Shown piece after piece: positions 32,464 to 33,334 of a stretch of 52,697 nucleotides of DNA. Both the position numbers and the translations under genes were made by a program. Within the stretch, counting starts at the first letter, position 1; the number at the start of each line of letters is the position of its first letter. Origin of the DNA: Helicobacteraceae bacterium (lineage in GTDB: Bacteria > Campylobacterota > Campylobacteria > Campylobacterales > SZUA-545); NCBI GenBank assembly GCA_031260125.1, contig JAIRKM010000044.1, forward strand, positions 1-52,697. Direction: 5' to 3'. Under the pieces are notes generated by a model. It worked only from the letters and a program-made list of their open reading frames with translations. It was not told where the DNA came from and did not search any database.

Positions 32464-33189
32464 TTAATTCATATACGCGTAGCTAAACAAGAACGAAACT
32501 CCGCCGAAGTTTTTAGACTCACTCTTGCCGTTGATGTTATATTCAAGCTCTACGGGTATGCTGCGGTATCCGATTGACAGCTTGGCGCCGCTTTCAAAAG
32601 CGTAGCCGCCGTAGAAACCAAAGCTCAAGCCGTCTCCCGAAAGGTCGTAGCCTACGTTGGCGTAATCGTCGCTGCCGCCCGAAGCGCTAACTACGCCAAG
32701 CTCGGCGCCTATAAAAGCGGAGCCGTCTTTGTAACCGTTTATATAGTACTCCGCCGCTACGCCGGGAATAACGATGGTATCCGTGTACTCGTCTTTTTGG
32801 CCAATGAGATCTTCCACCGAAACGGTGGTAAACGAAAAGGATATCTTCGGCTTAACGACAAAGTTTTCCGTAACGCCAAGCGGAACGCCCGCGTGCAGTT
32901 CGAGGAACAGACCCAAGCCGTCGGAATCCAAGCCGTATGAGTCTTCTACGGCGTCTGTGTGATCGCCTCCCGTATTAAACCCTAAGCCAACCTCAAAGCC
33001 TACGCTAAAGGCTTGGGCGCTAGAAGCGAAAACTAACGAAGCAACAAAAACAAAGGAAGCGAAAATCCCGCTTTTTACAGCCCTAACGGGGGGGGGGGGC
33101 AGTGAGTGGTGATGGCTCACCAGCCTAACGGGGGGAGGGGGAGTAGTGAGCGAAGATGGCTCACCAGATAGCCTCTTATGCGTACACAT
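32464..33189 (-). CDS. Outer-membrane beta-barrel protein with homopolymer tract before its signal peptide
   Basis: The ATG at 33189 has a strong AAGGAGG 6 nt upstream. The first about 35 codons run through two tandem repeats with C-tracts (encoding runs of prolines), then a normal signal peptide follows (SGIFASFVFVASLVFASSAQ). The mature part has alternating strands with a terminal YAYMN, typical of a small outer-membrane porin-like barrel (GLSFGFYGGYAFESGAKLSI). At the present tract length (12 bases) the frame is open; a change of one base would uncouple the start from the signal peptide. No alternative start codon follows the tract before the signal peptide. Confidence 0.8.
   Translation of the reverse strand: MCTHKRLSGEPSSLTTPPPPVRLVSHHHSLPPPPVRAVKSGIFASFVFVASLVFASSAQAFSVGFEVGLGFNTGGDHTDAVEDSYGLDSDGLGLFLELHAGVPLGVTENFVVKPKISFSFTTVSVEDLIGQKDEYTDTIVIPGVAAEYYINGYKDGSAFIGAELGVVSASGGSDDYANVGYDLSGDGLSFGFYGGYAFESGAKLSIGYRSIPVELEYNINGKSESKNFGGVSFLFSYAYMN
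33082..33170. repeat. Tandem hairpin plus homopolymer repeat (12 G) at an outer-membrane gene start
   Basis: Two imperfect copies of a 42-44-bp unit. Read on the minus strand each is CTGGTGAGCCATC, then a partner CTCAC, a C-rich tract and CGTTAGG. Unit A has a perfect 6-bp stem (GTGAGC/GCTCAC) and a C5-T-C6 tract. Unit B has a 5-bp stem and an uninterrupted tract of 12 (plus-strand G at 33088-33099). The repeat sits between the Shine-Dalgarno/ATG and the signal peptide, so slippage in it would switch translation. Confidence 0.85.
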
Positions 33190-33334
33190 AGAAACCTCCT
33201 TAAAATGTGAAATGGAGGTATTTTGCTACACAATTGCTTAAAATTCAAGCTGTTTCTTATATTTCACTGATAGATTGAGCGTGAGCCGCTAGAAAGAACG
33301 AATGGGCGTCTGCCTTTGCCACTACGCATGTAGC

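Follow-up and report, generated by a model that had tools for sequence, protein, structure and literature searches.

A putative poly-C switch between start codon and signal peptide in the gene for a probable outer-membrane protein of an uncultured Helicobacter relative

The 5' end of a gene for a probable small outer-membrane protein of an uncultured Helicobacteraceae bacterium contains an uninterrupted tract of 12 cytosines, and the gene is very probably a contingency locus with translational phase variation. Loci of this kind are known, and the logic resembles that of oipA. The gene is located on the minus strand of the window, i.e., the whole stretch of 52,697 nucleotides (52.7 kb) which was analysed here, in a genome of 1.64 Mb in 87 contigs. 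The frame logic, variable tracts in orthologs, ON and OFF copies of lipoprotein genes and a genome-wide excess of long C tracts all fit the translational switch which the original prediction had proposed. Translation would start from the ATG at 33189, pass a leader which is dispensable and then the C12 tract, and so reach the signal peptide; gain or loss of cytosines would result from slipped-strand mispairing in replication. Lengths divisible by 3 (here 12) would be ON, with export of a small outer-membrane barrel, and other lengths would meet stops directly after the tract, yielding no exported protein. Switching itself, with slippage at useful rates in cells, is inferred from the sequences, as are translation of the leader with no block on export and exposure of the protein on the surface. 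Against this reading, about 37 leader amino acids would stand ahead of the putative signal peptide in the ON product, for which export is a prediction, and a homopolymer such as C12 is open to miscounting in the assembly.

The open reading frame (32464-33189, minus strand; 241 amino acids) consists of an N-terminal leader, a signal peptide and a small outer-membrane beta-barrel with an OmpW-like fold according to a weak model. A Shine-Dalgarno sequence, AAGGAGG (33195-33201), was present 5 nt ahead of the ATG start codon (33187-33189), which is upstream of both tracts; on the minus strand this stretch reads TTTTAAGGAGGTTTCT-ATG(33189). Two units follow. Unit 1 (33167-33124) contains the inverted repeat GTGAGC..GCTCAC, the interrupted tract CCCCCTCCCCCC (C5-T-C6) and GTTAGG, with the layout CTGGTGAGCCATCTTCGCTCACTACT-C5TC6-GTTAGG; unit 2 (33123-33082) contains the inverted repeat TGGTGA..TCACCA, C12 and GTTAGG, with the layout CTGGTGAGCCATCACCACTCACTG-C12-GTTAGG. 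Thus, the two hairpin/C-tract repeats which had been described after AAGGAGG and ATG are both present, although they are imperfect and unequal (42-44 bases), and of the two tracts the first is no uninterrupted homopolymer, in contrast to the second. The putative hypermutable switch, C12 (33088-33099), lies 90 nt after the ATG, inside the frame and near its 5' end, and is in frame (ON) as assembled. It is followed directly by GTTAGGGCTGTAA (33075-33087), with one stop for each of the two wrong frames at no more than 13 nt from the tract. The putative signal peptide VKSGIFASFVFVASLVFASSAQA (33010-33078), in which an A-X-A cleavage site was assigned by visual inspection, precedes FSVG...; its first codon is GTA, which is no start. 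C12 is the sole C/G run of at least 10 bases in the window, where 0.09 such runs would be expected, and about 0.006 runs of at least 12 under an independent-base model; published cut-offs are at least 7 G/C (PMC6321876).

A Pfam scan of the protein returned nothing significant, and OmpW was missing from its matches even when these were listed to E <= 10. An AlphaFold2 model from three sequences was beta-rich, with low confidence (pLDDT 57, pTM 0.56); the best match of this model among solved structures was OmpW (2f1t, E 5.8e-5, TM-score 0.53-0.58). We call the protein a probable small outer-membrane barrel at most, which may be OmpW-like.

When the length of the tract was changed in silico, the full open reading frame (239-243 amino acids) was obtained with 6, 9, 12, 15 and 18 Cs, and the remaining lengths between 7 and 17 Cs gave products of 33-39 amino acids, terminated ahead of the signal peptide. 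These frames agree with the expectation that 12 bases leave the frame open and that a slip of one base abolishes the exported protein. Initiation after the tract had been named as a finding which would speak against a switch; no in-frame ATG, GTG or TTG was present in this gene between C12 and the signal peptide, and an in-frame GTG at offset 69 is likewise upstream of C12. At the codon preceding the lysine of the signal peptide, a likely place for a start, this gene has GTA and its orthologs have GTA, TTA or TTG, which suggests a lost ancestral start. In the G002 ortholog this codon is TTG, and initiation after the tract would be possible there.

Orthologs with 65-78% identity were found in four other genomes of the family, all of them with poly-C shortly before the signal peptide: C15 in G010, C10 in G012, C19 in G007 and C23 in G002. 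A tract of invariant length in relatives, which had been suggested as another argument against switching, was therefore not found. The leaders of the four orthologs are unrelated to the leader described here. As assembled, three of the orthologs (G010, G012 and G002) are OFF, since the ATG linked to a Shine-Dalgarno sequence is in another frame; the G007 contig ends nearby and its frame was left out. More distant homologs in a fifth genome, G009, showed tracts of C23 and C18 at that site. Two homologs in G001 with about 40% identity possess a leader and no tract, which counts against the proposal.

The same layout was observed elsewhere in the genome. C/G runs of at least 10 numbered 24, versus 2.9 expected, and those of at least 8 numbered 32, versus 44 expected; the excess thus concerns only long runs, not short ones. 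Nine lipoprotein genes showed an ATG which is linked to AAGGA and followed by a short leader, a tract of C9-C16 and a lipoprotein signal peptide, and most of them were OFF with respect to this ATG. The copy on contig C1 has C15 and is ON; the copy on contig C84, with an identical leader of 31 bases, has C13 and is OFF. The copy on contig C14 is in frame from a TTG only. RCC1 or GLUG repeats were detected in the two genes which were scanned of the nine. The cassette of leader, poly-C and signal peptide is common to these lipoprotein genes (contigs C1, C8, C14, C17, C44, C69, C76 and C84; L035-L069), and their C-terminal domains differ. Further tracts were present in genes for TonB-dependent receptors (plug domain) and in genes resembling those for methyltransferases and sugar-nucleotide enzymes. 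The TonB-dependent receptor-like genes L045, L053, L055 and L057 contain poly-G or poly-C near their 5' ends and are apparently out of frame as assembled. A run of C64 at the start of a contig (L058, G000:C57:1-90) is probably a sequencing or assembly artefact.

Of 18 tract loci examined, 17 had stops for both wrong frames at no more than 24 nt from the tract, versus 9.5% of coding positions in the window; this signature is suggestive only, since there is dependence among the loci (paralogy of the lipoproteins, and a sequence after the tract which is common to two orthologs). The loci being too related for a clean probability, the use of these stops as proof of selection was dropped.

Other causes of frame heterogeneity could be considered. 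RNA polymerase can slip on long homopolymers, and transcriptional slippage, or ribosomal frameshifting at the tract, would produce mixed frames in every cell; an OFF length would then still yield some protein, and the heterogeneity would not be heritable. Related loci are mostly OFF as assembled, a state which could be tolerated if their expression were rescued by slippage. However, the tract varies in length from ortholog to ortholog and also between copies whose leaders are identical, which means that the DNA itself changes, and the stops close the wrong frames at once; this explanation appears very improbable. An artefact of sequencing or assembly, e.g., from poly-G read tails or homopolymer miscounts, would account for tracts at contig ends, where some are in fact located, and for the C64 run, which looks artefactual. 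It would hardly account for a C12 tract internal to a contig of 52.7 kb with an open reading frame in frame across it, nor for orthologs in other assemblies with tracts at the same site while other genera of the family are without any, and we regard it as extremely improbable.

The mismatch-repair background was compared in 60 genomes of the order, several of them incomplete, with tract-rich genomes defined by at least 5 runs of at least 10 Cs (n = 16). MutS domain I was undetected in all 16 tract-rich genomes and detected in 33 of the 44 others (Fisher p ~9e-8, uncorrected for phylogeny). MutL was found in 0/16 genomes tested, while 11/14 control genomes had it. The tract-rich genomes belong to two genera of this family (all sampled members of g1 and g6) and to two other families of the order; other genera of this family showed no such tracts. 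Some tract-poor genomes are also without MutS domain I, therefore its loss would be permissive at most. In Campylobacter jejuni, slippage errors were attributed to missing functional mismatch repair (PMC3928116).

The type of switch is already known; its recurrence across a set of surface genes is without an earlier report that we found for this lineage. In Helicobacter pylori, other Hop genes related to oipA switch in like manner. In oipA (hopH) itself, simple-repeat slippage likewise takes place in the 5' region coding for the signal peptide, with ON/OFF switching of an outer-membrane protein (PMC6918935). Its repeat consists of CT dinucleotides inside the signal peptide after ATGAAAAAAGC, whereas a C homopolymer in a leader before the signal peptide is present here, and a CT dinucleotide repeat of the oipA type was absent from the region coding for the signal peptide. 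In pilC and opa of Neisseria, which code for surface proteins, a C/G tract or a pentamer repeat is likewise located inside the reading frame (PMC5953494). Genes and lineage are unrelated to the present locus. To our knowledge, pilC and opa have no separate long leader ahead of the signal peptide, unlike the gene described here. The poly-G/C tracts in the phasomes of Campylobacter and Helicobacter canadensis likewise form sets across the whole genome, and many of them are located in genes for surface structures and for modification (PMC6321876, PMC2823697). Translational switching by poly-G was reported for H. canadensis (PMC2823697); here the layout of leader, poly-C and signal peptide recurs in genes for an outer-membrane protein and for lipoproteins of an uncultured lineage.

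This lineage appears to inhabit termite guts, judging from the names of metagenome-assembled genomes (Gsp477_bin128, Iy174_bin57; "Helicobacteraceae bacterium"). A literature search found no earlier report of phase variation in termite-gut Campylobacterota, an absence which is no proof of novelty. Repeat-driven surface switching, best known in vertebrate pathogens and commensals, would be extended to an uncultured, apparently termite-gut relative of Helicobacter. In this apparent habitat, selection cannot come from vertebrate antibodies; phages, protists and insect immunity are testable alternatives. Owing to the recurrent layout, sequence reads by themselves would give a clean readout of ON and OFF states, and more genomes would allow a test of the link with missing MutS domain I in the order.

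The tandem hairpin units could perhaps be a dedicated element which raises slippage or sets the rate of ON/OFF switching; this would add to the explanation by phase switching and is no alternative to it. The GTGAG/CTCAC stem is kept in both units despite different loops (TTCG versus ACCA), and the fold is slightly better than that of shuffled sequences: the minimum free energy is -11.9 kcal/mol as DNA (z = -2.1), a modest value, as 6 of 200 shuffles were equally good. The units are spaced at 44 nt from stem to stem and at 42 nt from GTTAGG to GTTAGG. Both match GGTGAGCCATCNNNNCTCACT exactly. However, the search for further units which the original prediction had recommended was negative, with no copy of GGTGAGCCATCNNNNCTCACT in the genome at 0-1 mismatch beyond the pair in the window. 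No units were seen in the orthologs, and relatives matched the pattern only with 2-3 mismatches, about as often as they matched a reversed control. A dedicated element therefore has little probability, and a genome-wide element was rejected. GTGAGCCATC on contigs C19 and C26 was discarded as well, being within unrelated sequence with no C tract.

In the hairpin units, local sequence is duplicated in tandem, and this duplication of the tract together with its inverted repeat is most likely incidental. A wider proposal would be a lineage-specific format, comprising a Shine-Dalgarno sequence, a leader of no further use, poly-C, stops for both wrong frames directly behind it and a signal peptide with a lost start, which was reused on unrelated surface proteins and arose together with the loss of MutS1, the tandem inverted-repeat units being a tuned version; taken as a whole, this seems rather unlikely. 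Owing to the T interruption, the tract of unit 1 should be more stable. In unit 2 (33123-33082), TCACCA and TGGTGA are reverse complements within the one unit, a state which templated correction of a palindrome would leave; in place of TCACCA, unit 1 (33167-33124) has TCTTCG. As a speculation, the loops could differ because of a templated change inside the palindrome.
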